From: Odiellus spinosus
Taxonomy: Eukaryota; Arthropoda; Arachnida; Opiliones; Phalangiidae
Assembly (NCBI GenBank): GCA_963920705.1
Contig: OY987239.1
Location: 11,767,004 to 11,831,003, forward strand
Direction: 5' to 3'
Length of the DNA: 64,000 nt
In this document: positions 4,569-63,845 of the stretch, piece after piece
Layout: each line of letters starts with the position of its first letter
How positions within the stretch are numbered: the stretch's first letter is position 1
Translations under genes and position numbers: made by a program
The notes under the pieces: generated by a model
Seen by the model: only the letters and a program-made list of their open reading frames with translations
Databases searched by the model: none
Told to the model about the DNA's origin: nothing

Positions 4569-5076
4569 AGCTCAGAATTGGATATCCGTTATTCGTATAT
4601 TTTCAGATATTTTATTTTCGGATAAATTGTAACTAAAACAATGAAATTTCTATATTCGTATAATTGTTAAATGGTTTACCCGAAGATAAGCCTTCGCCGC
4701 TTTATCTACCTACAAATTACTCAGTTTTCAAACGTATAACGATGGATAATTCGCGTTTCCAGAGTCTAAAATATAAGAAAATATTTCAAATTGACTTTTA
4801 ATTCGAAGGATAGAAATAAAACGATAAGATTTTAAATCATCTTTTTATTCGTTATTTTTCACGGAAATAAATTTTGAATGTTTTTTATCCGAACGTATAA
4901 CGCATCGGATAATATTCTAAGAAGGCCATTTTTGTTGGATAATAAAAACGGATATGGATTAGGTTTTTTTTTACTTTATCTTCGTATAAGTTAACTCGAA
5001 TGAAGTCTATTTTTAATAAAACATCAGAATTTAGTAGATTTTATCCAATTAATAAAAATTATACGAAATCCGAGCT
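4569..5076 (-). mobile_element. Family E element (AGCTCGG...CCGAGCT), full-length copy
   Basis: A 508-bp element bounded by AGCTCAGAATTGGATATCCG on the left and ATACGAAATCCGAGCT on the right. Conserved inner blocks are TTTCAGATATTTTATTTTCG, GTTTACCCGAAGATAAGCC, ATAACGATGGATAATTCGCG and GAAGGCCATTTTTGTTGGAT. The same order, usually inverted, is seen at 9981, 16985, 19183, 51860, 58171 and 60678. There is no coding capacity. I could not fix a target duplication, so the superfamily is open. Confidence 0.85.
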
Positions 5077-9980: not shown

Positions 9981-10475
9981 TTATCCGCGTTATACGTTCG
10001 GATAAAAAACATTCAAAATTAATTTTCGTAAAAAAATAACGAATTCGAGTTAACTTATTCCAAGATAAAGTTAAAAAACCCTAATCCATATCCGTTTTTA
10101 TTATCCAACAAAAATGGCCTTCTTAGAATATTATCCGCGTTATACGTTCGGATAAAAAACATTCAAAATTAATTTTCAGTGAAAAATAACGAATAAAAAG
10201 ATGATTTAAAATCTTAGTTTCGTCGTTTTATTTATATTCTTCGAATTAAAAGTTAATTTGAAATATTTTTCTTATATTTTAGACTCTGGAAACGCGAATT
10301 ATCCATCGTTATACGTTTGAAAACGAGTAATTTGTAGGTAGATAAAGCGGCGAAGGCTTATCTTCGGGTAAACCATTTAACAATTATACGAAGATAGAAA
10401 TTTCATTGTTTTAGTTACAATTTATCCGAAAATAAAATATCTGAAAATATACGAATAACGGAAGATAACGGCTCT
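9981..10475 (+). mobile_element. Family E element, rearranged copy
   Basis: The left terminus is gone. Instead, ~60 bp beginning TTATCCGCGTTATACGTTCG (9981-10040) repeats an internal segment found again at 10131-10192. The element then runs on from CGAGTTAACTTATTCCAAGA to its usual right part, ending GAAAATATACGAATAACGGA near 10475. Read as an element with an internal piece duplicated over its left end. Confidence 0.78.
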
Positions 10476-19182: not shown

Positions 19183-19688
19183 CTCGGAATTCGTATAATT
19201 TTTATTAATTGGATAAAATCTAATAAATTATGATCTATATTATCAGATTAAAAATAGACTTCATTCGAGTTAACTTATTCCAAGATAAAGTAAAAAAAAC
19301 CTAATCCATATCCGTTTTTATTATCCAACAAAAATGGCCTTCTTAGAATATTATCCGATGCGTTATACGTTCGGATAAAAAACATTCAAAATTGATTTTC
19401 CGTGAAAATAACGAATAAAAAGATGATTTAAAATCTTATCGTTTTATTTCTATTCTTCGAATTAAAAGTCAATTTTGAAATTTTTTCTTATATTTTAGAC
19501 TCTGGAAACGCGAATTATCCATCGTTATACGTTTGAAAACGAGTAATTTGTAGATAGATAAAGCGGCGAAAGTCTTATCTTCGGGGTAAACCATTTAACA
19601 ATTATACGAATATAGAAATTTCATTGTTTTAGTTACAATTTATCCGAAAATAAAATATCTGAAAATATACGAATAACGGAAGATTGTT
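19183..19688 (+). mobile_element. Family E element, near-complete copy
   Basis: CTCGGAATTCGTATAATTTT at the left, then the full family E order, ending GAAAATATACGAATAACGGA and AGAT. The outermost bases of the right terminus (CGATTCCGAGCTC) are missing. Confidence 0.85.
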
Positions 19689-20130: not shown

Positions 20131-20550
20131 CAGAGGTATATAATAACCCCCTTCGGGGGGGAAGTATGAAAGCCCCTATACTACCAATGCTAAAAATCAC
20201 GAACAACGAGAGCCGGCTGCTGACTATCTAGGCCACTAGCTCGCGCTGGACTTCTCAATGTCGCTACTCTAGTAAATGGTCTTTGTATAAACAAGACGGC
20301 TCGATTTGCGTTTAGAACTTCCTGTCTCGGGAGTCAGGCTGTCTGTTAAAATGGAGTCGAAGGTTGACTTCATCTCGCGAGTTCCGGAAGCGCGCGTAGG
20401 GAAAATTTAGTCAGGTTCAAAATGGTGTAACTATTTTTTGGGAGTAAAGCGGTGTGTCGATCCGCCGCGATTTACGCCGGGCACTCGTTGTTCGTCGATT
20501 TTGCCTACCTTTCATACTTCCCCTCGAAGGGGGGTTATTATATACCTCTG
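20131..20550 (+). mobile_element. Family B MITE (CAGAGG...CCTCTG), copy 1
   Basis: A 420-bp element with ~41-bp terminal inverted repeats, CAGAGGTATATAATAACCCC and its inverse. The repeat itself contains a C/G hairpin, CCCCCTTCGGGGG. Inside lies a second inverted pair, CGAACAACGAG and CTCGTTGTTCG. Flanks ATATGAT and CTAGCAT do not match, so this copy lacks a clear target duplication. A 73-codon frame crosses its right end and is not considered coding. Confidence 0.9.
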
Positions 20551-20574
20551 CTAGCATGAAACCAGGAATTGTTT

Positions 20575-21436: not shown

Positions 21437-22460
21437 CTATAAGATTACTAGGAAGACCTTGAAATTACTTTGAAGCCTTTGAAATTACTACAAGATTACT
21501 AGGAAGACCTTGAAATTACTTTGAAGCCTTTGAAATTAATACAAGATTACTAGGAAGACCTTGAAATTACTTTGAAGCCTTTGAAATTACTACGAAGCCT
21601 TTGAAATTACTACAAGATTACTAGGAAGACCTTGAAATTACTTTGAAGCCTTTGAAATTACTACAAGATTACTAGGAAGACCTTGAAATTACTTTGAAGC
21701 CTTTGAAATTACTACGAAGCCTTTGAAATTACTACAAGATTACTAGGAAGACCTTGAAATTACTTTGAAGCCTTTGAAATTAATACAAGATTACTAGGAA
21801 GACCTTGAAATTACTTTGAAGCCTTTGAAATTAATACAAGATTACTAGGAAGACCTTGAAATTACTTTGAAGCCTTTGAAATTACTACGAAGCCTTTGAA
21901 ATTACTACAAGATTACTAGGAAGACCTTGAAATTACTTTGAAGCCTTTGAAATTACTACAAGATTACTAGGAAGACCTTGAAATTACTTTGAAGCCTTTG
22001 AAATTACTACGAAGCCTTTGAAATTACTACAAGATTACTAGGAAGACCTTGAAATTACTTTGAAGCCTTTGAAATTACTACAAGATTACTAGGAAGACCT
22101 TGAAATTACTTTGAAGCCTTTGAAATTAATACAAGATTACTAGGAAGACCTTGAAATTACTTTGAAGCCTTTGAAATTACTACGAAGCCTTTGAAATTAC
22201 TACAAGATTACTAGGAAGACCTTGAAATTACTTTGAAGCCTTTGAAATTACTACAAGATTACTAGGAAGACCTTGAAATTACTTTGAAGCCTTTGAAATT
22301 AATACAAGATTACTAGGAAGACCTTGAAATTACTTTGAAGCCTTTGAAATTACTACGAAGCCTTTGAAATTACTACAAGATTACTAGGAAGACCTTGAAA
22401 TTACTTTGAAGCCTTTGAAATTACTACAAGATTACTAGGAAGACCTTGAAATTACTTTGA
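21437..22460 (+). repeat. Satellite domain 1: 51/72-bp units
   Basis: Head-to-tail units made of GATTACTAGGAAGACCTTGA, AATTACTTTGAAGCCTTTG and AAATTACTACAA (51 bp). Some carry an additional ~21-bp TACGAAGCCTTTGAAATTAC block (72 bp). The longer and shorter units follow a recurring order, so a higher-order repeat is present. It is the left, distinct part of one continuous 6.8-kb satellite. Confidence 0.93.
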
Positions 22461-23160
22461 AACCGTTGAAATTACTACAAGATTACTATGAAGCCATAGA
22501 AATTACTACAAGATTACTATGAAGCCATTGAAATTACTACAAGATTACTATGAAGCCATTGAAATTACTACAAGATTACTATGAAGCCATTGAAATTACT
22601 ACAAGATTACTATGAAGCCATTGAAATTACTACAAGATTACTATGGAGACCTTGAAATTACTTCGAAGCATTTGAAACTGCTACAAGATTACTATGAAGC
22701 CATATAAATTACTCCAAGATTACTATGAAGCCATATAAATTACTCCAAGATTACTATGAAGCCATATAAATTACTCCAAGATTACTATGAAGCCATATAA
22801 ATTACTACAAGATTACTATGGAGACCTTGAAATTACTTTGAAGCATTTGAAATTACTACAAGATTCCTATGAAGCCATAAGAATTACTACGAAGCAGTTG
22901 AAATTACTACAAGATTATTATGAAGCCATATAAATTACTACAAGATTACTATGAAGACATTGTAATTACTTTGAATCCTTTGAAATTACTACAAGATTAC
23001 TATGAAGCCATTGGAATTACTATGAAGCAGTTTAAATTACTACAAGATTACTATGAAGGCACTGAAATTGCTTTGAAGCCTTTGAAATTACTACAATATT
23101 ACTATGAAGGCATTGAAATTACTTCGGAAACTATAAAATTATTATACAAGATTACTCTCA
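22461..23160 (+). repeat. Satellite domain 2: diverged units
   Basis: The same ATTACTACAAGATTACTATG theme, but units vary in length and sequence (GAAGCCATTGAAATTAC, GAAGCCATATAAATTACTCC, GAAGCATTTGAAACTGC). Lower homogeneity suggests older sequence between two recently amplified domains. A 155-codon frame (22920-23387) begins here; it follows the repeat and is not a gene. Confidence 0.9.
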
Positions 23161-23375
23161 AGACGTTGAAATTACTACAAGATTACTTTCAAGACGAAAT
23201 TACTACAAGATTACTTTCAAGACGAAATTACTACAAGATTACTTTCAAGACGAAATTACTACAAGATTACTTTCAAGACGAAATTACTACAAGATTACTT
23301 TCAAGACGAAATTACTACAAGATTACTTTCAAGACGAAATTACTACAAGATTACTTTCAAGACGAAATTACTACA
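23161..23375 (+). repeat. Satellite domain 3: 28-bp units
   Basis: About seven perfect copies of GATTACTTTCAAGACGAAAT then TACTACAA (28 bp). This short unit reappears, with TCTC for TTTC, as the spacer in domain 4. Confidence 0.93.
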
Positions 23376-26300
23376 AGATTACTATGAAGACCTTGAAATT
23401 ACTGCAAGATTACTATGAAGACCTTGAAATTACTGCAAGATTACTATGAAGACCTTGAAATTACTGCAAGATTACTATGAAGACCTTGAAATTACTGCAA
23501 GATTACTATGAAGACCTTGAAATTACTGCAAGATTACTCTCAAGACGAAATTACTACAAGATTACTATGAAGACCTTGAAATTACTGCAAGATTACTATG
23601 AAGACCTTGAAATTACTGCAAGATTACTATGAAGACCTTGAAATTACTGCAAGATTACTCTCAAGACGAAATTACTACAAGATTACTATGAAGACCTTGA
23701 AATTACTGCAAGATTACTATGAAGACCTTGAAATTACTGCAAGATTACTATGAAGACCTTGAAATTACTGCAAGATTACTATGAAGACCTTGAAATTACT
23801 GCAAGATTACTCTCAAGACGAAATTACTACAAGATTACTATGAAGACCTTGAAATTACTGCAAGATTACTATGAAGACCTTGAAATTACTGCAAGATTAC
23901 TATGAAGACCTTGAAATTACTGCAAGATTACTATGAAGACCTTGAAATTACTGCAAGATTACTCTCAAGACGAAATTACTACAAGATTACTATGAAGACC
24001 TTGAAATTACTGCAAGATTACTATGAAGACCTTGAAATTACTGCAAGATTACTATGAAGACCTTGAAATTACTGCAAGATTACTATGAAGACCTTGAAAT
24101 TACTGCAAGATTACTCTCAAGACGAAATTACTACAAGATTACTATGAAGACCTTGAAATTACTGCAAGATTACTATGAAGACCTTGAAATTACTGCAAGA
24201 TTACTATGAAGACCTTGAAATTACTGCAAGATTACTATGAAGACCTTGAAATTACTGCAAGATTACTATGAAGACCTTGAAATTACTGCAAGATTACTAT
24301 GAAGACCTTGAAATTACTGCAAGATTACTATGAAGACCTTGAAATTACTGCAAGATTACTCTCAAGACGAAATTACTACAAGATTACTATGAAGACCTTG
24401 AAATTACTGCAAGATTACTATGAAGACCTTGAAATTACTGCAAGATTACTATGAAGACCTTGAAATTACTGCAAGATTACTATGAAGACCTTGAAATTAC
24501 TGCAAGATTACTCTCAAGACGAAATTACTACAAGATTACTATGAAGACCTTGAAATTACTGCAAGATTACTATGAAGACCTTGAAATTACTGCAAGATTA
24601 CTATGAAGACCTTGAAATTACTGCAAGATTACTATGAAGACCTTGAAATTACTGCAAGATTACTATGAAGACCTTGAAATTACTGCAAGATTACTATGAA
24701 GACCTTGAAATTACTGCAAGATTACTATGAAGACCTTGAAATTACTGCAAGATTACTATGAAGACCTTGAAATTACTGCAAGATTACTCTCAAGACGAAA
24801 TTACTACAAGATTACTATGAAGACCTTGAAATTACTGCAAGATTACTATGAAGACCTTGAAATTACTGCAAGATTACTATGAAGACCTTGAAATTACTGC
24901 AAGATTACTCTCAAGACGAAATTACTGCAAGATTACTATGAAGACCTTGAAATTACTGCAAGATTACTATGAAGACCTTGAAATTACTGCAAGATTACTC
25001 TCAAGACGAAATTACTACAAGATTACTATGAAGACCTTGAAATTACTGCAAGATTACTATGAAGACCTTGAAATTACTGCAAGATTACTATGAAGACCTT
25101 GAAATTACTGCAAGATTACTATGAAGACCTTGAAATTACTGCAAGATTACTATGAAGACCTTGAAATTACTGCAAGATTACTCTCAAGACGAAATTACTA
25201 CAAGATTACTATGAAGACCTTGAAATTACTGCAAGATTACTATGAAGACCTTGAAATTACTGCAAGATTACTCTCAAGACGAAATTACTGCAAGATTACT
25301 ATGAAGACCTTGAAATTACTGCAAGATTACTATGAAGACCTTGAAATTACTGCAAGATTACTCTCAAGACGAAATTACTACAAGATTACTATGAAGACCT
25401 TGAAATTACTGCAAGATTACTATGAAGACCTTGAAATTACTGCAAGATTACTCTCAAGACGAAATTACTGCAAGATTACTATGAAGACCTTGAAATTACT
25501 GCAAGATTACTATGAAGACCTTGAAATTACTGCAAGATTACTCTCAAGACGAAATTACTACAAGATTACTATGAAGACCTTGAAATTACTGCAAGATTAC
25601 TATGAAGACCTTGAAATTACTGCAAGATTACTATGAAGACCTTGAAATTACTGCAAGATTACTATGAAGACCTTGAAATTACTGCAAGATTACTATGAAG
25701 ACCTTGAAATTACTGCAAGATTACTCTCAAGACGAAATTACTACAAGATTACTATGAAGACCTTGAAATTACTGCAAGATTACTATGAAGACCTTGAAAT
25801 TACTGCAAGATTACTATGAAGACCTTGAAATTACTGCAAGATTACTATGAAGACCTTGAAATTACTGCAAGATTACTCTCAAGACGAAATTACTACAAGA
25901 TTACTATGAAGACCTTGAAATTACTGCAAGATTACTATGAAGACCTTGAAATTACTGCAAGATTACTATGAAGACCTTGAAATTACTGCAAGATTACTAT
26001 GAAGACCTTGAAATTACTGCAAGATTACTATGAAGACCTTGAAATTACTGCAAGATTACTATGAAGACCTTGAAATTACTGCAAGATTACTATGAAGACC
26101 TTGAAATTACTGCAAGATTACTCTCAAGACGAAATTACTACAAGATTACTATGAAGACCTTGAAATTACTGCAAGATTACTATGAAGACCTTGAAATTAC
26201 TGCAAGATTACTATGAAGACCTTGAAATTACTGCAAGATTACTATGAAGACCTTGAAATTACTGCAAGATTACTCTCAAGACGAAATTACTACAAGATTA

Positions 26301-28275
26301 CTATGAAGACCTTGAAATTACTGCAAGATTACTATGAAGACCTTGAAATTACTGCAAGATTACTATGAAGACCTTGAAATTACTGCAAGATTACTATGAA
26401 GACCTTGAAATTACTGCAAGATTACTATGAAGACCTTGAAATTACTGCAAGATTACTATGAAGACCTTGAAATTACTGCAAGATTACTATGAAGACCTTG
26501 AAATTACTGCAAGATTACTATGAAGACCTTGAAATTACTGCAAGATTACTATGAAGACCTTGAAATTACTGCAAGATTACTATGAAGACCTTGAAATTAC
26601 TGCAAGATTACTCTCAAGACGAAATTACTACAAGATTACTATGAAGACCTTGAAATTACTGCAAGATTACTATGAAGACCTTGAAATTACTGCAAGATTA
26701 CTATGAAGACCTTGAAATTACTGCAAGATTACTCTCAAGACGAAATTACTGCAAGATTACTATGAAGACCTTGAAATTACTGCAAGATTACTATGAAGAC
26801 CTTGAAATTACTGCAAGATTACTCTCAAGACGAAATTACTACAAGATTACTATGAAGACCTTGAAATTACTGCAAGATTACTATGAAGACCTTGAAATTA
26901 CTGCAAGATTACTATGAAGACCTTGAAATTACTGCAAGATTACTATGAAGACCTTGAAATTACTGCAAGATTACTATGAAGACCTTGAAATTACTGCAAG
27001 ATTACTCTCAAGACGAAATTACTACAAGATTACTATGAAGACCTTGAAATTACTGCAAGATTACTATGAAGACCTTGAAATTACTGCAAGATTACTCTCA
27101 AGACGAAATTACTGCAAGATTACTATGAAGACCTTGAAATTACTGCAAGATTACTATGAAGACCTTGAAATTACTGCAAGATTACTCTCAAGACGAAATT
27201 ACTACAAGATTACTATGAAGACCTTGAAATTACTGCAAGATTACTATGAAGACCTTGAAATTACTGCAAGATTACTCTCAAGACGAAATTACTGCAAGAT
27301 TACTATGAAGACCTTGAAATTACTGCAAGATTACTATGAAGACCTTGAAATTACTGCAAGATTACTCTCAAGACGAAATTACTACAAGATTACTATGAAG
27401 ACCTTGAAATTACTGCAAGATTACTATGAAGACCTTGAAATTACTGCAAGATTACTATGAAGACCTTGAAATTACTGCAAGATTACTATGAAGACCTTGA
27501 AATTACTGCAAGATTACTATGAAGACCTTGAAATTACTGCAAGATTACTATGAAGACCTTGAAATTACTGCAAGATTACTCTCAAGACGAAATTACTACA
27601 AGATTACTATGAAGACCTTGAAATTACTGCAAGATTACTATGAAGACCTTGAAATTACTGCAAGATTACTCTCAAGACGAAATTACTGCAAGATTACTAT
27701 GAAGACCTTGAAATTACTGCAAGATTACTATGAAGACCTTGAAATTACTGCAAGATTACTCTCAAGACGAAATTACTACAAGATTACTATGAAGACCTTG
27801 AAATTACTGCAAGATTACTATGAAGACCTTGAAATTACTGCAAGATTACTCTCAAGACGAAATTACTGCAAGATTACTATGAAGACCTTGAAATTACTGC
27901 AAGATTACTATGAAGACCTTGAAATTACTGCAAGATTACTCTCAAGACGAAATTACTACAAGATTACTATGAAGACCTTGAAATTACTGCAAGATTACTA
28001 TGAAGACCTTGAAATTACTGCAAGATTACTATGAAGACCTTGAAATTACTGCAAGATTACTATGAAGACCTTGAAATTACTGCAAGATTACTATGAAGAC
28101 CTTGAAATTACTGCAAGATTACTCTCAAGACGAAATTACTACAAGATTACTATGAAGACCTTGAAATTACTGCAAGATTACTATGAAGACCTTGAAATTA
28201 CTGCAAGATTACTATGAAGACCTTGAAATTACTGCAAGATTACTATGAAGACCTTGAAATTACTGCAAGATTACT
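23376..28275 (+). repeat. Satellite domain 4: 31-bp units punctuated by 28-bp units
   Basis: 31-bp units (GATTACTATGAAGACCTTGA then AATTACTGCAA) occur in runs separated by a 28-bp unit containing CTCTCAAGACGAAATTAC. Runs hold 1 to about 10 units. Where two 31-mers alternate with one 28-mer the period is 90 bp, divisible by three, which creates open frames of 81-171 codons (24848, 25121, 26672, 26945, 27519). A further alternation of ACTGCAAG and ACTACAAG after the 28-mer doubles the period to 180 bp. The frames at 24848 and 25121 recur exactly 1,824 bp downstream. Confidence 0.96.
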
Positions 28276-29015
28276 ACGACGACACGATTATTTGAGCGCG
28301 AATCTACACGTTTAACCGCGTAAGTAAATTAGTTAATTACTCGACCCCGACATCATAATGATATGACAAGGAGGTCAAGGGTTAGTAAACCTTAAACATT
28401 AATCCTAACGTACATATGCGGGCGAAGGGGGCTAACAGCGAGCTGGGTAGTGCCGCCCGGTAAGCTTATCTCTAGGGTGTAGTTAGTAAATTTAACGATT
28501 GAAGCTACTAAAAAACCTTCCGAGTTCCCTCGACATAACGTCAAATTTGACTGGGATTCGATTGTTAGAACTAAAGCTACGAGCAACGTCCACGTTAGGG
28601 ACGCTACTCGACCTCGGAAGTAAAAAAAACCCGACCAATTTGGGGGTTATTGTTTTAAGTCCCACGAAGATCTAGAAACATGCACTTGGAAAAAAAATGA
28701 TACCGCTCACTCAAGTCATTCGTGACCAACGCGTCGCGACCCTAGTTTGGTCACGAAACCATATCGCGCTCGGTATCCTAAAATAAGCGGGTCTAATTAG
28801 GGCAGTCTCGAGGTTTACGATCTCCCACGCAATTGTTTGAACTCAAGCGTTGCGCCCTTTCTCTTGGATCCCCCGAGGCAGTCACCTTGAGACGCGAAAC
28901 ATTACACTTTGACCCTAACAAGGAAGCTAGCCTCCACCGCGTTTCAACCAAAAACGGCGGACTCTACGCCCGCCGTCAGTGGATGAACCCCCAAACCACG
29001 GTTAAACAATTCTAC
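28276..29015. other. G+C-richer unique DNA with a stem-loop
   Basis: Noticeably less AT-rich than its surroundings. TCGTGACCAA (28720-28729) pairs with TTGGTCACGA (28747-28756), a 10-bp stem with a 17-nt loop. Small frames (28392-28586 minus; 28833-29063 plus) exist. The plus-strand one runs into a MITE, so at most its first 61 codons could be native. Nothing is recognised. Confidence 0.4.
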
Positions 29016-31667: not shown

Positions 31668-32085
31668 CAGAGGTATATAATAACCCCCTTCGGGGGGAAG
31701 TATGAAAGGTAGGCAAAATCGACGAACAACGAGTGCCCGGCGTAAATCGCGGCGGATCGACACACCGCTTTACTCCCAAAAAATAGTTACACCATTTTGA
31801 ACCTGACTAAATTTTCCCTACGCGCGCTTCCGGAACTCGCGAGCCGAAGTCAACCTTCGACTCCATTTTAACGGACAGCCTGACTCCCGAGACAGGAAGT
31901 TCTAAACGCAAATCGAGCCGTCTTGTTTATACAAAGAGCATTTACTAGAGTAGCGACATTGAGAAGTCCAGCGCGAGCTAGTGGCCTAGATAGTCAGCAG
32001 CGGGCTCTCGTTGTTCGTGATTTTTAGCATTGGTAGTATAGGGGCTTTCATACTTCCCCCCGAAGGGGGTTATTATATACCTCTG
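31668..32085 (-). mobile_element. Family B MITE, copy 2
   Basis: A 418-bp element, inverted relative to copy 1. It is flanked by a perfect 7-bp duplication, ATATAGA (31661-31667 and 32086-32092). Confidence 0.96.
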
Positions 32086-32189
32086 ATATAGACCACTAAT
32101 TCTGTAATTACTGACGTCACGGGACAATTGGTATCTGGTAGCTAAAATCCAAATTACTTCAAAGTAGAGCCCACATTAACAGCATTCGC

Positions 32190-32681: not shown

Positions 32682-32688
32682 CTAGCAC

Positions 32689-33579
32689 CAGAAGTAGATG
32701 AAACCCTCCTTTGAAGTCTACTACTCTAATGTTCGATATAGCGCTCCTCTCTGTATGGGTAAAATTCCCAATTTTACGAGTTAGAAGGGGTCCTACTTCA
32801 TACCCCCCTGTCTACGGAAAATTGGAAATTCTCTCTCTCCACAAACGACGACGTTTTTTTTAACGAACGAGCGAATATCTCTAGCAGCCTCGGAGTTCGT
32901 CAAAAAAACGTCGTCGTTTGTGGAGAGAGAGAATTTCCAATTTTCCGTAGACAGGGGGGATGAAGTAGGACCCCTCCGATCTCGTAAAATTGGGAATTTT
33001 ACCCATACAGAGAGGAGCGCTATATCGAACATTAGATTAGTAGACTTCAAAGGAGGGTTTCATCGGCTTTTGACAAAAGTAAATATCAAATCGTATGGTT
33101 AGGTTAGAAATCAAATAATCCATATAATAAAAGTTGCTTTATTTGAAAACAGTCTACGCCATTCCTCTATCCTCTTTAAAGTCACGAAGCATAGTTGACT
33201 AAAGTAGGAGAAGTTGCAGGACCCCCTTATTACATTATTGAATTTCAATTTCTTAAAAACCTGTTAGAATTCAAGTTCGCCACCTAGATAACCATATCTC
33301 TCACTACTTTTGAAGTCTGTAAAACCCCAACCTTCATCGGAGGGGTCCTACTTCATGCCCCCCTGTCTACGGAAAATTGGAAATTCTCTCTCTCCACAAA
33401 CAACGACGTTTTTTTGACGAACTCCGAGGCTGCTAGAGATATTCGGTGGACGAACTCCCGCTCCGAAAATATCTACCGTTAGGAGGCGTACGAATCGCGC
33501 TTTTCGAAACTAATCCATACAGAGAGGGGTAGACAAGACCAGGGAGTAATAGACTTCAAAGGAGTTTCATCGGCTTCTG
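32689..33579 (-). mobile_element. Family A composite element with inverted half and 263-bp insert
   Basis: The outer flanks CTAGCAC (32682-32688 and 33580-33586) are a perfect 7-bp duplication, so the whole 891 bp behaves as one insertion. 32689-33072 is a palindrome: a reverse-oriented family A half joined to a forward-oriented half, arms ~170 bp, ending in the variant CGGCTTTTG. 33073-33335 is unrelated DNA. 33336-33579 resumes the reverse-oriented element from ATCGGAGGGGTCCTACTTCA to its right end, with 3 bp missing in GGAGTTTCATCGG. Confidence 0.88.
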
Positions 33580-33586
33580 CTAGCAC

Positions 33587-34460: not shown

Positions 34461-34799
34461 AACTTAAAAGGATATTTTATTAACTTCTGATTACAATTTA
34501 CAGAGAAAGAGGGGGGTCAAAGGTAAGGGACCATAAAAAAGGTTCTTTATTTTCTCCCATTTCCTTTGTTTTTTGAACCAGACCAGGAAATTTATTTTAC
34601 GGAAATTTTAATGAAATATATAGGATGAAACCCTATCCCACCAACTAGCCAAGGCTTATCGTGTGTAAGCCGCGTTGCCAAGAAAAAAAAAAATCGAATA
34701 AAGATTTCAGTCCGGATAAGAAAACGGATTAAGTTTTTGGAAACCTCCGACCATAAGATATATTTCACGGTCTTTCAATATCCACCAGACTCCTTTTAG

Positions 34800-35137
34800 C
34801 AGAAGCCGATGAAACCCTCCTTTGAAGTCTACTACTCTAATGTTTCATATAGCGCTCCTCTCTGTATGGGTAAAATTCACAATTTTACGAGATCGGAGGG
34901 GTCCTACTTCATACCCCCCTGTCTACGGAAAATTGGAAATTCTCTCTCTCCACAAACGACGACGTTTTTTTGACGAACTCCGAGGCTGCTAGAGATATTC
35001 GCTCAACGAACTCCCGCTCTGAAAATATCTACCGTTAGGAGGCGTACGAATCGCGCTTTTTGAAACTAACCCATACAGAGAGGGGTAGACAAGACCCGGG
35101 AGTAATAGACTTCAAAGGAGGGTTTCATCGGCTTCTG
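34800..35137 (-). mobile_element. Family A MITE with 16-bp flanking duplication
   Basis: A typical 338-bp reverse copy. ACCAGACTCCTTTTAG occurs at 34784-34799 and again at 35138-35153, a 16-bp direct repeat instead of the family's usual 7 bp. DNA just downstream (GCCTATTTTCCGGGTAAGTT) resembles the core of family D, so the target may be an old foldback. Confidence 0.93.
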
Positions 35138-35419
35138 ACCAGACTCCTTTTAGCTAAAACCTTGGAGGAATGAGGTTACCAGGGGGATCGACTGCCTATT
35201 TTCCGGGTAAGTTTATTCTTATTTTAATTCAAGAGCCGTCAAGAATTCAAAAAAATATATAAACCCGACAAAGAACGAAAAGACATCCAACTAATTAAAT
35301 TTCTAAGTTGGCAGTTTTCTATCAATTGTGACACTTCAAAGAAGTTGAAAATATTCCCTCTTTCTTAGAAAAACTCAAGTCAAGTTGATAATATTAAAGA
35401 ACAAAAATAGACCTATCAT

Positions 35420-44307: not shown

Positions 44308-47300
44308 GGTTTTTGGGTTTTTTGTGAGTTTAGACCTTTCTTAGGATTGAGTTTTGGGTTTTTTGTGAGTTTAGACCTTTCACGAGATTGAGTTTTTAGT
44401 TTTTTGTGAGTTTACACCTTTCTTAAGATTGAGTTTTGGATTTTTGTGAGTTTAGACCTTTCTTAAGATTGAGTTTTGGGTTTTTTGTGAGTTTAGACCT
44501 TTATATAGATTGAGTTTTGGGTTTTTTGTGAGTTTAGACCTTTCTTAAGATTGAGTTTTGGGTTTTTTGTGAGTTTAGACCTTTATATAGATTGAGTTTT
44601 GGGTTTTTTGTGAGTTTAGACCTTTCTTAAGATTGAAGTTTTGGGTTTTTTGTGAGTTTAAACCTTTCTTAAGATTGAGTTTTTGGGTTTTTGTGAGTTT
44701 AGACCTTTCTTAAGATTGAGTTTTTGGGTTTTTGTGAGTTTAGACCTTTCTTAAGATTCAGTTTTGGGTTTTTTGTGAGTTTAGACCTTCCTATTGATTG
44801 AGTTTTTGGTTTTTTTGTGAGTTTAGACCTTTCTTAAGATTGAGTTTTTGGTTTTTGTGAGTTTAGACCTTTCTTAAGATTGAGTTTTTGGTTTTTTTGT
44901 GAGTTTAGACCTTTCTTAAGATTGAGTTTTTGGTTTTTGTGAGTTTAGACCTTTCTTAAGATTGAGTTTTTGGTTTTTTTGTGAGTTTAGACCTTCCTAT
45001 TGATTGAGTTTTTGGTTTTTTTGTGAGTTTAGACCTTCCTATTGATTGAGTTTTTGGTTTTTTTGTGAGTTTAGACCTTCCTATTGATTGAGTTTTTGGT
45101 TTTTTTGTGAGTTTAGACCTTTCTTAAGATTGAGTTTTTGGGTTTTTCTCAGTTTAGACCTTTCTTAAGATTGAGTTTTTGGTTTTTCTGAGTTTAGACC
45201 TTTATATAGATTGAGTTTTTGGGTTTTTTGCGAGTTTAGACCTTTATATAGATTGAGTTTTTGGTTTTTTGTGAGTTTAGACCTTTCTTAAGATTGAGTT
45301 TTTGGGTTTTTTGTGAGTTTAGACCTTTATATAGATTGAGTTTTGGGTTTTTTGTGAGTTTAGACCTTTCTTAAGATTGAGTTTTGGGTTTTTTGTGAGT
45401 TTAGACCTTTATATAGATTGAGTTTTGGGTTTTTTGTGAGTTTAGACCTTTCTTAAGATTGAAGTTTTGGGTTTTTTGTGAGTTTAAACCTTTCTTAAGA
45501 TTGAGTTTTTGGGTTTTTGTGAGTTTAGACCTTTCTTAAGATTGAGTTTTTGGGTTTTTGTGAGTTTAGACCTTTCTTAAGATTCAGTTTTGGGTTTTTT
45601 GTGAGTTTAGACCTTCCTATTGATTGAGTTTTTGGTTTTTTTGTGAGTTTAGACCTTTCTTAAGATTGAGTTTTTGGTTTTTGTGAGTTTAGACCTTTCT
45701 TAAGATTGAGTTTTTGGTTTTTTTGTGAGTTTAGACCTTTCTTAAGATTGAGTTTTTGGTTTTTGTGAGTTTAGACCTTTCTTAAGATTGAGTTTTTGGT
45801 TTTTTTGTGAGTTTAGACCTTCCTATTGATTGAGTTTTTGGTTTTTTTGTGAGTTTAGACCTTCCTATTGATTGAGTTTTTGGTTTTTTTGTGAGTTTAG
45901 ACCTTCCTATTGATTGAGTTTTTGGTTTTTTTGTGAGTTTAGACCTTTCTTAAGATTGAGTTTTTGGGTTTTTCTCAGTTTAGACCTTTCTTAAGATTGA
46001 GTTTTTGGTTTTTCTGAGTTTAGACCTTTATATAGATTGAGTTTTTGGGTTTTTTGCGAGTTTAGACCTTTATATAGATTGAGTTTTTGGTTTTTTGTGA
46101 GTTTAGACCTTTCTTAAGATTGAGTTTTTGGGTTTTTTGCGAGTTTAGACCTTTATATAGATTGAGTTTTTGGGTTTTTTGTTAGTTTAGACCTTTCTTA
46201 AGATTGAGTTTTGGGTTTTTGTGAGTTTAGACCTTTCTTAAGATTGAGTTTTTGGGTTTTTTGTTAGTTTAGACCTTTCTGAAGATTGAGTTTTTGGGTT
46301 TTTTGTGAGTTTAGACCTTTCTTAAGATTGAGTTTTTGGGTTTTTCTCAGTTTAGACCTTTCTTAAGATTGAGTTTTTGGTTTTTCTGAGTTTAGACCTT
46401 TATATAGATTGAGTTTTTGGGTTTTTTGCGAGTTTAGACCTTTATATAGATTGAGTTTTTGGTTTTTTGTGAGTTTAGACCTTTCTTAAGATTGAGTTTT
46501 TGGGTTTTTTGCGAGTTTAGACCTTTATATAGATTGAGTTTTTGGTTTTTTGTGAGTTTAGACCTTTCTTAAGATTGAGTTTTTGGGTTTTTTGTGAGTT
46601 TAGACCTTTCTTAAGATTGAGTTTTTGGGTTTTTTGTGAGTTTAGACCTTTCTTAAGATTGAGTTTTTGGGTTTTTTGTGAGTTTAGACCTTTCTTAAGA
46701 TTGAGTTTTTGGGTTTTTTGTGAGTTTAGACCTTTCTTAAGATTGAGTTTTTGGGTTTTTTGTGAGTTTAGACCTTTCTTAAGATTGAGTTTTTGGGTTT
46801 TTTGTGAGTTTAGACCTTTCTTAAGATTGAGTTTTTGGGTTTTTTGTGAGTTTAGACCTTTCTTAAGATTGAGTTTTTGGGTTTTTTGTGAGTTTAGACC
46901 TTTCTTAAGATTGAGTTTTTGGGTTTTTTGTGAGTTTAGACCTTTCTTAAGATTGAGTTTTTGGGTTTTTTGTGAGTTTAGACCTTTCTTAAGATTGAGT
47001 TTTGGGTTTTTTTGTGAGTTTAGACCTTTCTTAAGATTGAGTTTTTGGTTTTTGTGAGTTTAGACCTTTCTTAAGATTGAGTTTTTGGTTTTTTTGTGAG
47101 TTTAGACCTTCCTATTGATTGAGTTTTTGGTTTTTTTGTGAGTTTAGACCTTCCTATTGATTGAGTTTTTGGTTTTTTTGTGAGTTTAGACCTTCCTATT
47201 GATTGAGTTTTTGGTTTTTTTGTGAGTTTAGACCTTTCTTAAGATTGAGTTTTTGGGTTTTTCTCAGTTTAGACCTTTCTTAAGATTGAGTTTTTGGTTT

Positions 47301-49345
47301 TTCTGAGTTTAGACCTTTATATAGATTGAGTTTTTGGGTTTTTTGCGAGTTTAGACCTTTATATAGATTGAGTTTTTGGTTTTTTGTGAGTTTAGACCTT
47401 TCTTAAGATTGAGTTTTTGGGTTTTTTGTGAGTTTAGACCTTTATATAGATTGAGTTTTGGGTTTTTTGTGAGTTTAGACCTTTCTTAAGATTGAGTTTT
47501 GGGTTTTTTGTGAGTTTAGACCTTTATATAGATTGAGTTTTGGGTTTTTTGTGAGTTTAGACCTTTCTTAAGATTGAAGTTTTGGGTTTTTTGTGAGTTT
47601 AAACCTTTCTTAAGATTGAGTTTTTGGGTTTTTGTGAGTTTAGACCTTTCTTAAGATTGAGTTTTTGGGTTTTTGTGAGTTTAGACCTTTCTTAAGATTC
47701 AGTTTTGGGTTTTTTGTGAGTTTAGACCTTCCTATTGATTGAGTTTTTGGTTTTTTTGTGAGTTTAGACCTTTCTTAAGATTGAGTTTTTGGTTTTTGTG
47801 AGTTTAGACCTTTCTTAAGATTGAGTTTTTGGTTTTTTTGTGAGTTTAGACCTTTCTTAAGATTGAGTTTTTGGTTTTTGTGAGTTTAGACCTTTCTTAA
47901 GATTGAGTTTTTGGTTTTTTTGTGAGTTTAGACCTTCCTATTGATTGAGTTTTTGGTTTTTTTGTGAGTTTAGACCTTCCTATTGATTGAGTTTTTGGTT
48001 TTTTTGTGAGTTTAGACCTTCCTATTGATTGAGTTTTTGGTTTTTTTGTGAGTTTAGACCTTTCTTAAGATTGAGTTTTTGGGTTTTTCTCAGTTTAGAC
48101 CTTTCTTAAGATTGAGTTTTTGGTTTTTCTGAGTTTAGACCTTTATATAGATTGAGTTTTTGGGTTTTTTGCGAGTTTAGACCTTTATATAGATTGAGTT
48201 TTTGGTTTTTTGTGAGTTTAGACCTTTCTTAAGATTGAGTTTTTGGGTTTTTTGCGAGTTTAGACCTTTATATAGATTGAGTTTTTGGGTTTTTTGTTAG
48301 TTTAGACCTTTCTTAAGATTGAGTTTTGGGTTTTTGTGAGTTTAGACCTTTCTTAAGATTGAGTTTTTGGGTTTTTTGTTAGTTTAGACCTTTCTGAAGA
48401 TTGAGTTTTTGGGTTTTTTGTGAGTTTAGACCTTTCTTAAGATTGAGTTTTTGGGTTTTTCTCAGTTTAGACCTTTCTTAAGATTGAGTTTTTGGTTTTT
48501 CTGAGTTTAGACCTTTATATAGATTGAGTTTTTGGGTTTTTTGCGAGTTTAGACCTTTATATAGATTGAGTTTTTGGTTTTTTGTGAGTTTAGACCTTTC
48601 TTAAGATTGAGTTTTTGGGTTTTTTGCGAGTTTAGACCTTTATATAGATTGAGTTTTTGGTTTTTTGTGAGTTTAGACCTTTCTTAAGATTGAGTTTTTG
48701 GGTTTTTTGTGAGTTTAGACCTTTCTTAAGATTGAGTTTTTGGGTTTTTTGTGAGTTTAGACCTTTCTTAAGATTGAGTTTTTGGGTTTTTTGTGAGTTT
48801 AGACCTTTCTTAAGATTGAGTTTTTGGGTTTTTTGTGAGTTTAGACCTTTCTTAAGATTGAGTTTTTGGGTTTTTTGTGAGTTTAGACCTTTCTTAAGAT
48901 TGAGTTTTGGGTTTTTTTGTGAGTTTAGACCTTTCTTAAGATTGAGTTTTTGGGTTTTTTGTGAGTTTAGACCTTTCTATAGATTGAGTTTTTGGTTTTT
49001 TGTGAGTTTAGACCTTTATATAGATTGAGTTTTGGGTTTTTTGTGAGTTTAGACCTTTATATAGATTGAGTTTTTGGTTTTTTGTGAGTTTAGACCTTTA
49101 TATAGATTGAGTTTTGGGTTTTTTGTGAGTTTAGACCTTTATATAGATTGAGTTTTGGGTTTTTTGTGAGTTTAGACCTTTCTTAAGATTGAGTTTTGGG
49201 TTTTTTGTGAGTTTAGACCTTTCTTAAGATTGAGTTTTTGGGTTTTTGTGAGTTTAGACCTTTCTAAAGATTGAGTTTTTGGTTTTTGTGAGTTTAGACC
49301 TTTCTGAAGATTGAAGTTTTGGGTTTTTTGTGAGTTTAGACCTTA
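44308..49345 (+). repeat. 42-bp satellite, ~120 units, higher-order structure
   Basis: Base unit GAGTTTTTGGGTTTTTTGTG then AGTTTAGACCTTTCTTAAGATT, 38-43 bp. Variants differ in T/G run lengths and in the CTTAAG position (TATATAG, CTATTG, CTGAAG). Landmark variants (GATTGAAGTTTTGGG with GAGTTTAAACC) recur at 44635, 45461 and 47576, defining 826-bp and 2,115-bp super-repeats. The 171- and 123-codon frames at 46542 and 48657, exactly 2,115 bp apart, arise where all units are 42 bp (14 codons). Confidence 0.97.
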
Positions 49346-51859: not shown

Positions 51860-52387
51860 AGCTCGGAATTCGTATAATTTTTATTAATTGGATAAAATCT
51901 AATAAATTTTGATGTTATATTATCCGTTTGATTAAAACATAGACTTCATTCGAGTTAATTTATTCCAAGATAAAGTAATACAACCTAATCCATATCCGTT
52001 TTTATTATCCAACAAAAATGGCCTTCTTAGAATATTATCCGATGCGTTATACGTTCGGATAAAAAAACATTCAAAATTTATTTTCGTGAAAAATAACGAA
52101 TAAAAAGATGATTTAAAATCTTATCGTTTTATTTCTATTCTTCGAATTAAAAGTCAATTTTGAAATATTTTCTTATATTTTAGACTCTGGAAAGGCGAAT
52201 TATCCATCGTTATACGTTTGAAAACGAGTAATTTGTAGGTAGATAAAGCGGCGAAGGCTTATCTTCGGGTAAACCTTTTAACAATTATACGAATATTGAA
52301 ATTTCATTGTTTTAGTTACAATTTTATCCGAAACTAAAATATCTGAAAATATACCGAAGATAATGGATCGACCCGATTCCCAGCTCA
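51860..52387 (+). mobile_element. Family E element, full-length copy
   Basis: AGCTCGGAATTCGTATAATT at the left. The right end reads GAAGATAATGGATCGACCCG then ATTCCCAGCTC. This copy gives the most complete right terminus. 528 bp, non-coding. Confidence 0.87.
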
Positions 52388-52901: not shown

Positions 52902-53130
52902 CGATTCTTCAAACACGATAGTCAGCGTGCAACGAAACCGAGGGTCCCTATATCTTCAAGTAAATAATTCACAGAGATAATGGTAAGCTTTGTACACGAT
53001 ACCAAATTAATGTGGACGGAAATAAAGAGAATCAACCATCTGCATTGAGATAATTTCCAACGATTCTTCAAACACGATAGTCAGCACGCGGAAACCGAGA
53101 ATCCCTATATCTTTCGATGGAAATAATTCA
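52902..53130 (+). repeat. ~70-bp direct duplication
   Basis: CGATTCTTCAAACACGATAG, then ACCGAGGGTCCCTATATCTT, then AAATAATTCA (52902-52971) recurs with several changes at 53061-53130. A family A composite inserted at the edge of the second copy. Confidence 0.7.
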
Positions 53131-53133
53131 TAC

Positions 53134-53682
53134 CAGAAGCCGATGAAACCCCTCCTTTGAAGTCTACTACTCTAATGTTCCATATAGCGCTCCTCTCTGT
53201 ATGGTTCCAATATCCTATATACTCGACAAGGGTGGCTACTAAAATTGATGTTCAAATTTGACTATCTCTTATCCAGGAACCACGAAGATCTATCTTTTCA
53301 TCCCCTTCGTTTCAGTTAAAGGAAATATCTAATTTTAAATATAGTCAGAAGCCGATGAAACCCTCATTTGAAGTCTACTAGTCCAATGTTCCATATAGCG
53401 CTCCTCTCTGTATGGGTAAAATTCACAATTTTACGAGATCGGAGGGGTCCTACTTCATACCCCCTGTCTACGGAAAATTGGAAATTCTCTCTCTCCACAA
53501 ACGACGACGTTTTTTTGACGAACTCTAAGGCTGCTAGAGATATTCGCTGGACGAACTCCCGCTCCGAAAATATCTACCGTTAGGAGGCGTACGAATCGCG
53601 CTTTTTGAAACTAACCCATACAGAGAGGGGTAGACAAGACCCGGGAGTAATAGACTTCAAAGGAGGGTTTCATCGGCTTCTG
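53134..53682 (-). mobile_element. Family A composite: 71-bp end, 141-bp capture, full element
   Basis: A perfect 7-bp duplication, TTCATAC (53127-53133, 53683-53689), encloses the whole 549 bp. 53134-53204 is the first 71 bp of a reverse family A copy, ending CTCTGTATGG. 53205-53345 is unrelated DNA beginning TTCCAATATCCTATATACTC. 53346-53682 is a complete element. The 141 bp is identical, inverted, to 63705-63845. The first ~40 bp of the inner element share diagnostic bases with the 63366 copy, after which it matches the outer fragment. Confidence 0.93.
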
Positions 53683-53689
53683 TTCATAC

Positions 53690-58170: not shown

Positions 58171-58663
58171 GAGCTCGGAATCGGACCTGTTATTTTCAGA
58201 TATTTTTATTTTCGGTTAAATTGTTCTTAACTAAAACAATGAAATTTCTATATTCGTATAATTATTAAATGGTTTACCCGAAGATAAGCCTTCGCCGCAT
58301 TATCTACCTACAAATTACTCGTTTTCAACACGTATAACGATGGATAATTCGCGTTTCCAGAGTCTAAAATATAAGAAAAAAATTTCAAATTGACTTTTAA
58401 TTCGAAGAATATAAATAAAACGACGAAACTAAGATTTTAAATCATCTTTTTATTCGTTATTTTTCACGGAAAATAAATTTTGAATGTTTTTTATCCGAAT
58501 GTATAACGCATCGGATAATATTCTAAGAAGGCCATTTTTGGATAAAAACGTTGTTTTTACTTCATCTTCGAATAAGTTAACTCAAATGAAGTTTTTTTTT
58601 TTAATTTACATCAGAATTTAGTAGATTATATCCAATTAATAAAAATTATACGAATTCCGAGCT
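58171..58663 (-). mobile_element. Family E element
   Basis: GAGCTCGGAATCGGACCTGT at the left and ATACGAATTCCGAGCT at the right, 493 bp. The usual CCATTTTTGTTGGATAATAA is shortened to CCATTTTTGGATAAAAACG. Confidence 0.86.
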
Positions 58664-59826: not shown

Positions 59827-60314
59827 CAGAAGCCGATGAAACCCTCCTTTGAAGTCTACTACTCTAATGTTCGATATAGCGCTTCGTGGTCGATATGAGA
59901 ATGTACACTGGGGTTTCTATTCGCTTTACGTTTGACCACTCTGCCTTCGAGTGTTTAACCTGAACATGACTACCGAATCTATTTAAACTAGCAGAAGCCG
60001 ATGAAACCCTCCTTTGAAGTCTACTACTCTAATGTTCGATATAGGGCTCCTCTCTGTATGGGTAAAATTCCCAATTTTACGAGATCGGAGGGGTCCTACT
60101 TCATACCCCCCTGTCTATGGAAAATTGGAAATTCTCTCTCTCCACAAACGACGACGTTTTTTGGACGAACTCCGAGGCTGCTAGAGATATTCGCTCCGAA
60201 AATATCTACCGTTAGGAGGCGTACGAATCGCGCTTTTTGAAACTAACCCATACAGAGAGGGGTAGACAAGACCAGGGAGTAATAGACTTCAAAGGAGGGT
60301 TTCATCGGCTTCTG
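59827..60314 (-). mobile_element. Family A composite: 57-bp end, 108-bp insert, full element
   Basis: 59827-59883 is a family A terminus cut after ATATAGCGCT. 59884-59991 is 108 bp of unrelated DNA starting TCGTGGTCGATATGAGAATG. 59992-60314 is a full-ended copy lacking ~15 bp of interior (ATTCGCTCCGAAAATATC). Outer flanks CTAGAGT and ATAATAT do not match. The layout parallels 53134-53682. The insert was not found elsewhere in the window. Confidence 0.88.
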
Positions 60315-60677
60315 ATAATATTAAGTATTATTGGCTGGTGTTTCATGGCCAAGGACTTTCAATTTCTCTTTATCAAAAAGTCATAAAAACGTATTTTCAA
60401 TTTTTAAGGTAATATTCAAATTCTATAATTCATGGCCCCCCATACAATTTGGTGGATTTTAAATCAAAAATTCCGACCATATCAGATCTGTTCCCTTTCT
60501 AATAGAATATAAGAAGAAAAAAAAAAAAAAGCTGGGCTTCAGAATCACAATCAAAACTCTCGTTTGCGCGTTGGACCCTTAATGAGCCTATAAAACCCAT
60601 CCTTTTTCCCAGACCCGCACATATTTCGGGTGTAAAACAAGAGCGTCAAGGACAAAATATATTTTCACCAAAATGTA
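60315..60677. other. No feature recognised
   Basis: AT-rich, with an A-run at 60516. Confidence 0.45.
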
Positions 60678-61162
60678 GAGCTCGGAATTCGTATAATTTT
60701 TATTAATTTAATAAATTCTGTTTGATTAAAAATAGACTTCATTCGAGTTAATTTATTCGAAGATAAAGAAAAAAAAACCTAATCCATATCCGTTTTTATT
60801 ATCCAACAAAAATGGCAACTTATCTTAGAATATTATCCGATGCGTTATACGTTCGGATAAAAAAATATTCAAAATTTATTTTCCGTGAAAAATAACGAAT
60901 AAAAAGATGATTTAAAATCTTATCGTTTTATTTCTATCCTTCGAATTAAAAGTTAATTTGAAATTTTTTCTTATATTTTAGACTCTAGAAAACGCGAATT
61001 ATCCATCGTTACACGTGTTGAAAACGAGATAATTTGTAGGTAGATAAAGCGGCGAAGGCTTATCTTCGTGTAAACCTTTTAACAATTATACGAATATAGA
61101 AATTTCATTGTTTTAGTTACAATTTATCCGAAAATAAAATATCTGAAAATATACGAATATAA
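60678..61162 (+). mobile_element. Family E element, right end lost
   Basis: GAGCTCGGAATTCGTATAAT at the left, with a small deletion (ATTGGATAAAATCTAATAA is shortened). It runs to GAAAATATACGAATATAATA and then leaves the family. A 77-codon minus frame (61113-61346) crosses the end and is not accepted. Confidence 0.83.
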
Positions 61163-61708: not shown

Positions 61709-61753
61709 CCGCGTTCATACTAGACCTCTGAATCGATTTGATCTGTTTCAAAT
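61709..61753 (+). repeat. Family H fragment cut by a MITE
   Basis: GCCGCGTTCATACTAGACCT and ATCGATTTGATCTGTTTCAAAT match the start of family H units. The rest of the unit does not resume after the MITE. Confidence 0.65.
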
Positions 61754-62091
61754 CAGAAGCCGATGAAACCCTCCTTTGAAGTCTACTACTCTAATGTTCG
61801 ATATAGGGCTCCTCTCTGTATGGGTAAAATTCCCAATTTTACGAGATCGGAGGGGTCCTACTTCATACCCCCCTGTCTACGGAAAATTGGAAATTCTCTC
61901 TCTCCATAAACGACGACGTTTTTTTGACGAACTCCGAGGTTGCTAGAGATATTCGGTGGACGAACTCCCGCTCCAAAAATATCTACCGTTAGGAGGCGTA
62001 CGAATCGCGCTTTTTGAAACTAACCCATACAGAGAGGGGTAGACAAGACCAGGGAGTAATAGACTTCAAAGGAGGGTTTCATCGGCTTCTG
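61754..62091 (-). mobile_element. Family A MITE in family H, no target duplication
   Basis: A 338-bp reverse copy. Flanks TTCAAAT and ATATCAT do not match, and the interrupted family H unit does not continue on the right. Deletion or exchange next to the element is the likeliest reason. Confidence 0.93.
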
Positions 62092-62096
62092 ATATC

Positions 62097-62309
62097 ATGA
62101 AACAGCGAACAATGGACTCTTTGATCCTCAGGGTGAATTTATTTGGCGTACTTACTACTGTATTGCCAAAAAGGGAAGGTGACTATGTGAAGAAAATTTA
62201 CATTCATAAGAAATTAATTGCGAAAGATGGTGTACGGAGAAGTTATGAACAAGACCTAATTACTGGAGAGATATTTACGCCTCGAGTGAACTTTCTCATA
62301 AATTTGTAA
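62097..62309 (+). CDS. Weak open frame, 70 codons, unknown
   Basis: The product starts MKQRTMDSLILRVNLFGVLT and continues with charged, protein-like sequence (KREGDYVKKIYIHKKLIAKD, then DLITGEIFTPRVNFL). The start lies 6 bp after a family A end whose flank is rearranged, so any original upstream part would be lost. No family is recognised; a decayed transposon or gene remnant is possible. Confidence 0.15.
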   Translation: MKQRTMDSLILRVNLFGVLTTVLPKREGDYVKKIYIHKKLIAKDGVRRSYEQDLITGEIFTPRVNFLINL

Positions 62310-62371
62310 ACTCTCCTCTATAAGGAGACAGAATTTTGAGGAACTCTGGGTAATGGTTAATTACATTCTAG

Positions 62372-62789
62372 CAGAGGTATATAATAACCCCCTTCGGGGG
62401 GAAGTATGAAAGCCCCTATACTACCAATGCTAAAAATCACGAACAACGAGAGCCCGCTGCTGACTATCTAGGCCACTAGCTCGCGCTGGACTTCTCAATG
62501 TCGCTACTCTAGTAAATGGTCTTTGTATAAACAAGACGGCTCGATTTGCGTTTAGAACTTCCTGTCTCGGGAGTCAGGCTGTCCGTTAAAATGGAGTCGA
62601 AGGTTGACTTCGGCTCGCGAGTTCCGGAAGCGCGCGTAGGGAAAATTTAGTCAGGTTCAAAATGGTGTAACTATTTTTTGGGAGTAAAGCGGTGTGTCGA
62701 TCCGCCGCGATTTACGCCGGGCACTCGTTGTTCGTCGATTTTGCCTACCTTTCATACTTCCCCCCGAAGGGGGTTATTATATACCTCTG
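62372..62789 (+). mobile_element. Family B MITE, copy 3
   Basis: A 418-bp element, same orientation as copy 1, with a perfect 7-bp duplication ATTCTAG (62365-62371, 62790-62796). Confidence 0.96.
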
Positions 62790-62819
62790 ATTCTAGACAT
62801 AAAACACCTATTCAGCTTT

Positions 62820-63365: not shown

Positions 63366-63704
63366 CAGAAGCCGATGAAACCCTCCTTTGAAGTCTATTA
63401 CTCCCGGGTCTTGTCTACCCCTCTCTGTATGGGTTATTCTCAAAAGGCGCGATTCGTACGCCTCCTAACGGGAGATATTTTCGGAGCGGGAGTTCGTCCA
63501 CCGAATATCTCTAGCAGCCTCGGAGTTCGTCAAAAAAACGTCGTCGTTTGTGGAGAGAGAGAATTTCCAATTTTCCGTAGACAGGGGGGGTATGAAGTAG
63601 GACCCCTCCGATCTCGTAAAATTGGGAATTTTACCCATACAGAGAGGAGCGCTATATCGAACATTGGACTAGTAGACTTCAAATGAGGGTTTCATCGGCT
63701 TCTG
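63366..63704 (+). mobile_element. Family A MITE, donor-like copy
   Basis: A 339-bp forward copy. Its right end carries TAGTAGACTTCAAATGAGGG, with A for G in the usual CAAAGGAGGG, plus the nearby change ATTGGACTAG. The same changes occur only in the inner element of 53134-53682. Flanks ATAATAC and ACTATAT do not match, so no target duplication. Confidence 0.93.
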
Positions 63705-63845
63705 ACTATATTTAAAATTAGATATTTCCTTTAACTGAAACGAAGGGGATGAAAAGATAGATCTTCGTGGTTCCTGGATAAGAGATAGTCAAATTTGAAC
63801 ATCAATTTTAGTAGCCACCCTTGTCGAGTATATAGGATATTGGAA
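63705..63845 (-). repeat. 141-bp segment shared with 53205-53345
   Basis: By eye identical, in inverse orientation, over the full 141 bp to the insert of the composite at 53134-53682. It is not part of any other repeat here. Sequence beyond 63846 is not shared. Confidence 0.93.

Follow-up and report, generated by a model that had tools for sequence, protein, structure and literature searches.

How does a piece of single-copy DNA come to lie inside a member of a repeat family, pressed against a second, complete copy of the same repeat? The question is raised by a locus of the harvestman Odiellus spinosus, within a stretch of 64,000 nucleotides that we analysed as a whole, hereafter the window (C17:11767004-11831003, in an assembly of 443 Mb and 286 contigs). 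The repeat concerned, family A, is an inverted-repeat element of ~338 bp that starts with CAGAAGCCGATGAAA. A first look at the genome produced 870 candidates, 40 of which were scored; we gathered 77 near-full copies, 73 of them with both ends and flanks readable. Target duplications in these 73 copies are a perfect 7-bp repeat in 46 cases and an 8-bp repeat in one, sizes that agree with the P superfamily, with a 6/7 match in nine further copies and none in 17; the consensus of the 7-bp duplications is near ATAATAT. In the accessible text of PMC4168063, 7-8-bp duplications are given for Galileo, a member of this superfamily, and template switching during gap repair is described for the superfamily.

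A P transposase model has 68 matches in this genome. The terminus of family A, looked for at six of these 68 loci (3.1-3.2 kb read at each), had matches in four of the six, with 3-4 mismatches in 15 bases, and was otherwise unmatched. The fold of one copy as a single strand is much stronger than that of its shuffles (z -9.5), with an inner stem arm at element positions 58-72. Rfam and tRNA scans returned nothing, and neither did a scan of viral contigs for a 32-base terminus. Two copies in the window have unusual borders: the element at 34800-35137 (34784-35153) is bounded by a 16-bp direct repeat (ACCAGACTCCTTTTAG) in place of the usual 7 bp, and that at 61754-62091 (61740-62105) is without target duplication, its flanks carrying inverted arms (CTGTTTCA / TGAAACAG).

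The locus that raised the question, case 1, spans 53127-53689. Its parts and those of the related locus about 10 kb away are as follows.

53127-53133, plus strand: left target-site duplication TTCATAC, assigned to the resident element (from the sequence)
53134-53204, plus strand: outer fragment, element positions 1-70 plus one extra C (71 bp), interpreted as what remains of the resident left of the break
53205-53345, plus strand: captured flank, 141 bp, present at two genome places (from the genome search)
53346-53682, plus strand: inner element, full; positions 1-39 (at most 1-79) of donor type, the remainder not of donor type
53683-53689, plus strand: right target-site duplication TTCATAC
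63366-63704, minus strand: donor element, with no target duplication of its own
63705-63845, minus strand: donor flank

An earlier note on this DNA had described a single TTCATAC duplication enclosing the first 71 bp of an element, 141 bp of foreign DNA and a full element, and the sequence confirms this. The 141 bp are 100% identical to the inverted 63705-63845 and adjoin the same element end at both places, as had also been claimed. That they might simply be a common repeat can be ruled out: the genome search, which passes over simple repeats and very common words, gave two candidates, both scored, and thus two genome places only. As judged from the assembly rather than from reads, 53127-53689 and the 63366 locus are separate places with different element bodies. 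The outer heptamers of the 63366 copy differ (ATAATAC / ACTATAT), and its outer flanks (300 and 155 bp tested) have one genome place each, with no partner found. The full composite has one full-length place among the 40 best-scored candidates, which, together with its intact outer TTCATAC, makes an origin in place most likely.

The inner element is a mosaic. At positions 21, 36 and 39 it carries A, G and C, which are, as the earlier note had it, the bases of the 63366 copy. Singly these occur in 6, 2 and 14 of the 75 other copies, and the triple in none of them; in a smaller set of 54 other full copies, the counts are 6, 2 and 12, and again zero for the triple. Where, then, does the donor type end? 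The proposed marker was position 47, at which inner element and outer fragment both have C and the donor has G. The bases are as described, but both are frequent among the 75 other copies (C in 43, G in 29), which makes this weak evidence, and we set position 47 aside as proof of reversion. Further in, the sequence does leave the donor type, with eight more substitutions from position 80 on. From position 47 to the end, inner element and donor thus differ at 9 of 291 positions, the 36th percentile of all pairs; over the same part, the inner element differs from copy L005 at 2 of 291 positions and from copy L014 at 2 of 290. The flank and positions 1-46 show no difference in 187, compared with 9/291 in the rest of the element (Fisher p=0.014; the boundary was picked post hoc). 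Eight of the nine substitutions fall at sites where both bases are present among the 75 other copies; such family polymorphisms are expected from a template switch rather than from new mutation. The copied tract, put at 141 bp plus ~40-46 bp of element in the earlier note, therefore keeps its flank and its donor-type start, whereas its end at 40-46 hangs on position 47 and is better given as an interval, 40-79.

Is this locus alone in its structure? The window holds two more composites, at 32689-33579 (case 2) and 59827-60314 (case 3). The features of case 2 are:

32682-32688, plus strand: left target-site duplication CTAGCAC
32689-32868, plus strand: left part of the resident, element 1-180
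32870-33473, plus strand: putative copied tract, consisting of donor element from ~204 to 1, 263-bp flank and part of a second donor element (from alignment with L034)
33073-33335, plus strand: captured flank, 263 bp, present at two genome places
33474-33579, plus strand: right part of the resident, with 4 substitutions and a 2-base gap relative to the donor
33580-33586, plus strand: right target-site duplication CTAGCAC

Read from left to right, case 2 thus comprises element 1-180, a single odd base, element sequence in inverted orientation running from about 204 to 1, the 263 bp, and element 95-338. The other place of the 263 bp is C17:11835093-11835355 (at locus L034), inverted and 35 kb off. 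Between 32870 and 33473 there are 0 substitutions relative to L034 in 604 aligned bases, with two 1-base gaps, while the remaining 106 bases hold the 4 substitutions and the gap listed above; the contrast in substitutions (0/604 against 4/106) gives p=0.0005, again with a post hoc boundary. Two donor bases absent from the other counted copies, A3 and A159, are present in the tract. From the alignment, copying would have run out of one donor element, across the 263-bp flank and into a second, truncated donor element, and would have returned to the resident at an element position between 160 and 230.

Case 3 is made up of the following parts:

59827-59883, plus strand: outer fragment, element 1-57
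59884-59991, plus strand: captured flank, 108 bp; other copy at C17:11920642-11920749, 97% identical
59992-60314, plus strand: inner full element, sharing the rare G54 with its donor

The 108 bp again have two genome places, the other one inverted and 94 kb off, where the full element that they adjoin at its corresponding end has a perfect AAACTAG duplication. G54, found in 2 of the 75 other copies, occurs in the inner element and in the donor; the outer fragment lacks it. Eight substitutions separate the inner element from the donor element. Six of them involve a base seen in at most one of the 75 other copies, and these fit mutation after the event; the remaining two, at positions 172 and 258, correspond to polymorphisms of the family. 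The bases of case 3 therefore give no demonstration of reversion. Its outer half-duplications are unlike (CTAGAGT / ATAATAT), which implies re-entry into another copy, or later events. The right flank has one genome place. The 434 bp on the left match in full only at the locus itself, with 11 further, partial matches on other contigs (73-83%).

In all three composites of the window, then, the only other place found for the insert adjoins a family member. We examined a contiguous 188 kb, holding 42 element pieces (34 near full length) and 84 element ends, and compared 300-bp flanks within it, excluding matches less than 1.2 kb away; case 3 has its partner beyond this stretch. Apart from the pairs of cases 1 and 2, the element-adjoining matches there are to repeats with 6-13 places, except for a 52-bp match (88%) beside the element at 11872230, which has a single partner. 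If captures were random and independent, the chance that all three inserts abut an element exactly would be about 7e-10, given 84 ends in 188 kb. Beyond the 188 kb, we looked at the best-scoring 28 loci only (L003-L030), a set biased to intact copies that gives no genome-wide rate. The captured flanks differ from their counterparts at 0/141, 0/263 and 3/108 positions in cases 1, 2 and 3, and the target duplication of the resident is kept in two of the three. All three donors are inverted relative to their recipients, although three cases are too few for significance. No further spread of any composite was seen.

Three other candidates were not counted. At L041 (C17:11872230-11872975), ~82 bp of flank and the element stand in tandem within an outer ACATGAT, for which unequal exchange between neighbouring insertions is a better account. 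At L057 (C17:11760161-11761414, outer ATTCAAT), an element is split between positions 53 and 63 by 924 bp that end in poly-A; judged by eye, this is probably a nested retroposon. The flank shared by L008 and L020, 26 kb apart on C8, was found to belong to a segmental duplication, with homology running for more than 1.2 kb past the element at about 3.5% divergence; one copy of this pair has lost its target duplication.

What process leaves such a structure? Case 1 is probably a repair scar, in which a break in the resident was mended by copying the locus of another copy, with one illegitimate and one homologous junction. The resident element at TTCATAC would have been broken ~70 bp from its left end. 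The right broken end, still element sequence, would then have paired with the homologous stretch of the 63366 copy, ~10 kb off and inverted, and synthesis would have moved left over some tens of bases at the start of the donor element and on beyond its end, copying 141 bp of the adjoining single-copy flank. Finally, the new strand may have come off its template and been joined to the left side of the break with at most 1-2 bp of microhomology, so that the homologous junction would be hidden inside the element, the opposite one being illegitimate. The structure, the two-place insert, the mosaic and the recurrence in three composites are what we observe; the break, the order of the steps and the final end joining are what we infer from them. 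Templated copying with re-entry by element homology, the core of the earlier proposal, is supported: it fits the mosaic, and the pattern recurs in the two further composites.

The breakpoints themselves offer a further comparison. At the left illegitimate junctions of cases 1, 2 and 3, the shared bases number 1 (G), 0-1 (one odd base) and 2 (CT), counts from three junctions that stand without a chance control. The switch intervals, 40-79, 160-230 and 55-172, each include the base beside the left breakpoint (70, 180 and 57, respectively), and the chance of all three doing so is about 0.009 with position 47 set aside. Taken at face value, position 47 would place the switch of case 1 at 40-46, to the left of the break, and case 1 would then fail this rule. 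A tract end there clashes with a simple break near 71, because positions 47-71 would be resident on both sides; a switch anywhere in 40-79 allows a site just right of the break, if the G47 of the donor arose later or was mismatch-repaired.

In which direction was the DNA copied? The donors of cases 2 and 3 have target duplications (ACAAAAA / ACAAAAG around the donor element of case 2, a 6/7 match, and the perfect AAACTAG in case 3), which makes their flanks native and sets the direction of copying as donor to composite. The donor of case 1 has none, and its 141 bp are thus not proven to be native. The same direction can still be argued for, as the tract ends precisely at the left junction; copying the other way is unlikely, since it would have to break off at the very point where the unique DNA gives way to the 71-bp fragment.

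Could the same footprint arise without a double-strand break or end joining? In a replication-based alternative (FoSTeS/MMBIR), which is possible but which we favour less, a fork would stall in the hairpin-forming resident, and the nascent strand would jump by microhomology to the donor flank, be extended across it and into the donor element, and return to the resident template by homology. An identical footprint is expected, and resident sequence on both sides at 47-71 is allowed, so that position 47 becomes unproblematic and case 1 is better accommodated here than by break repair; cases 2 and 3, however, require no such overlap, and two switches are needed where break repair needs one synthesis tract. 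The strong fold of the one copy examined (single-stranded, z -9.5) would suit a stalled fork, and breakpoint 57 lies just before the stem arm 58-72 with breakpoint 70 inside its other edge, but two near-stem breakpoints are not enough to go by, and the third (180) lies away from the stem. Resident sequence on both sides is equally accounted for if a transposase removed the resident and the gap ends were copied from the sister, one strand switching to the donor locus. The 7-bp duplications near ATAATAT resemble those of the P superfamily, for which the accessible text of PMC4168063 describes template switching, and the genome has 68 matches to the P transposase model. We nonetheless consider excision an unlikely trigger, as the junctions are internal and away from the element ends, the six of 68 transposase loci read show either no match to the element terminus or one with 3-4 mismatches in 15 bases, and most single-copy captures in other animals were judged transposition-independent in what is accessible of PMC8277862.

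Two remaining explanations are far less probable. The intact outer target duplication of case 1 might suggest that the composite, or flank and element together, moved as one transposition unit, or that nested insertion followed by trimming took place. This is very improbable: each insert is present at two places and the full composite at one among the scored candidates, neither a resident remainder nor a second target duplication follows the inner element, and the mosaic would be left unexplained. It is just as improbable that flank and element were segmentally duplicated and then underwent gene conversion, or that the assembly is in error. The L008/L020 pair is a genuine duplication with a shared element, but its homology extends more than 1.2 kb past the element, against a flank of 141, 263 or 108 bp in our cases; moreover, flank divergence is unequal (0/141, 0/263, 3/108) and the resident's target duplication is kept in two of three.

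The process that we favour, copying from another copy's locus during break repair, belongs to a known class, which includes ectopic gap repair, repair-mediated duplication and Pack-TIR capture. Nassif et al. reportedly found in 1994 that P-element-induced gap repair copies nonhomologous DNA from an ectopic site; that system is said to have been experimental and transposase-induced and to have had homology at either end of the copied stretch; the present cases are homologous on one side only. Excision with filler DNA has been reported in rice (accessible part of PMC4423477). One-sided invasion in gene targeting, with introduced DNA, leaves one homologous and one illegitimate junction, the same junction types as here, where they occur between natural element copies. 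Pace et al. 2009 (PMC2671141, accessible text) described repair-mediated duplications that interrupt transposable elements and bear the hallmarks of synthesis-dependent strand annealing. Like theirs, our composites are repeats interrupted by a short insert (median length 147 bp in their proximal class; PMC2671141) that has a single further genome place, as holds for all three inserts, often with a linked donor. In the data given there, 824 of 1,136 donors lie within 5 kb, a distance typical of the proximal class rather than a requirement, against 10, 35 and 94 kb here, and the breakpoints show microhomology, deletion or filler, whereas one junction is homologous here. Our donors, unlike those described in the accessible part of that paper, are flanks of same-family copies. 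By our reading of the same text, cases 1 and 3 would escape its rule that the pieces lie within 30 bp of each other on the consensus.

In the accessible text of Tan et al. 2021 (PMC8277862), Pack-TIR elements are attributed to gap filling or FoSTeST, with switching guided by microhomology. Our composites resemble these in that an inverted-repeat element holds captured, linked, single-copy non-element DNA, possibly with short microhomology. On either side of the non-element DNA lies a piece of one inverted-repeat element, terminal repeats included, and each insert exceeds 100 bp and has a unique parental match (141, 263 and 108 bp). The parents differ from those accepted as Pack-TIR sources, which have no transposable element within 100 bp: all three parental flanks here adjoin a family member. 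As described in the accessible part of the paper (PMC8277862), the pipeline dropped any parent lying within 100 bp of a transposable element, and such captures were excluded by design; at least one published scan has thus filtered out a class of duplications whose donors lie beside transposable elements. Our literature search, which was not exhaustive, found no report of captured inserts adjoining another copy of the same family. What we take to be new is the combination of one-sided family homology as guide and the unique flank of the donor as cargo, repeated within one cluster.

Repeat families are usually credited with moving DNA through transposition or through crossing over between copies. 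Here, one-sided homology seems to guide repair, pasting the unique neighbour DNA of one copy into another. We tentatively suggest that dense clusters of hairpin elements may act as flank-exchange networks, in which breaks are repaired from linked copies through one-sided homology and single-copy DNA is copied over and over into unrelated sites without transposition; this is a speculative generalization, and if true could partly explain the copies without target duplications. The three scars in 64 kb form a series that can be ordered in time by their flank differences (0/141, 0/263, 3/108), and diagnostic bases bracket the points at which synthesis switched.

The window contains other repeats as well. 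Long satellite arrays occupy 13239-16121 (a 28-bp unit repeated 103 times, with 99% matches), 22451-28283 and 44309-49344. A second dispersed family, with copies of about 420-530 bp that are 85-95% alike, is found at 4585-5074, 10043-10466, 19183-19680, 51862-52385, 58191-58663 and 60672-61159. The copies of a third family, of about 420 bp, lie at 20131-20562, 31668-32088 and 62369-62805; they are 97-99.5% alike, and this family was therefore probably active recently.
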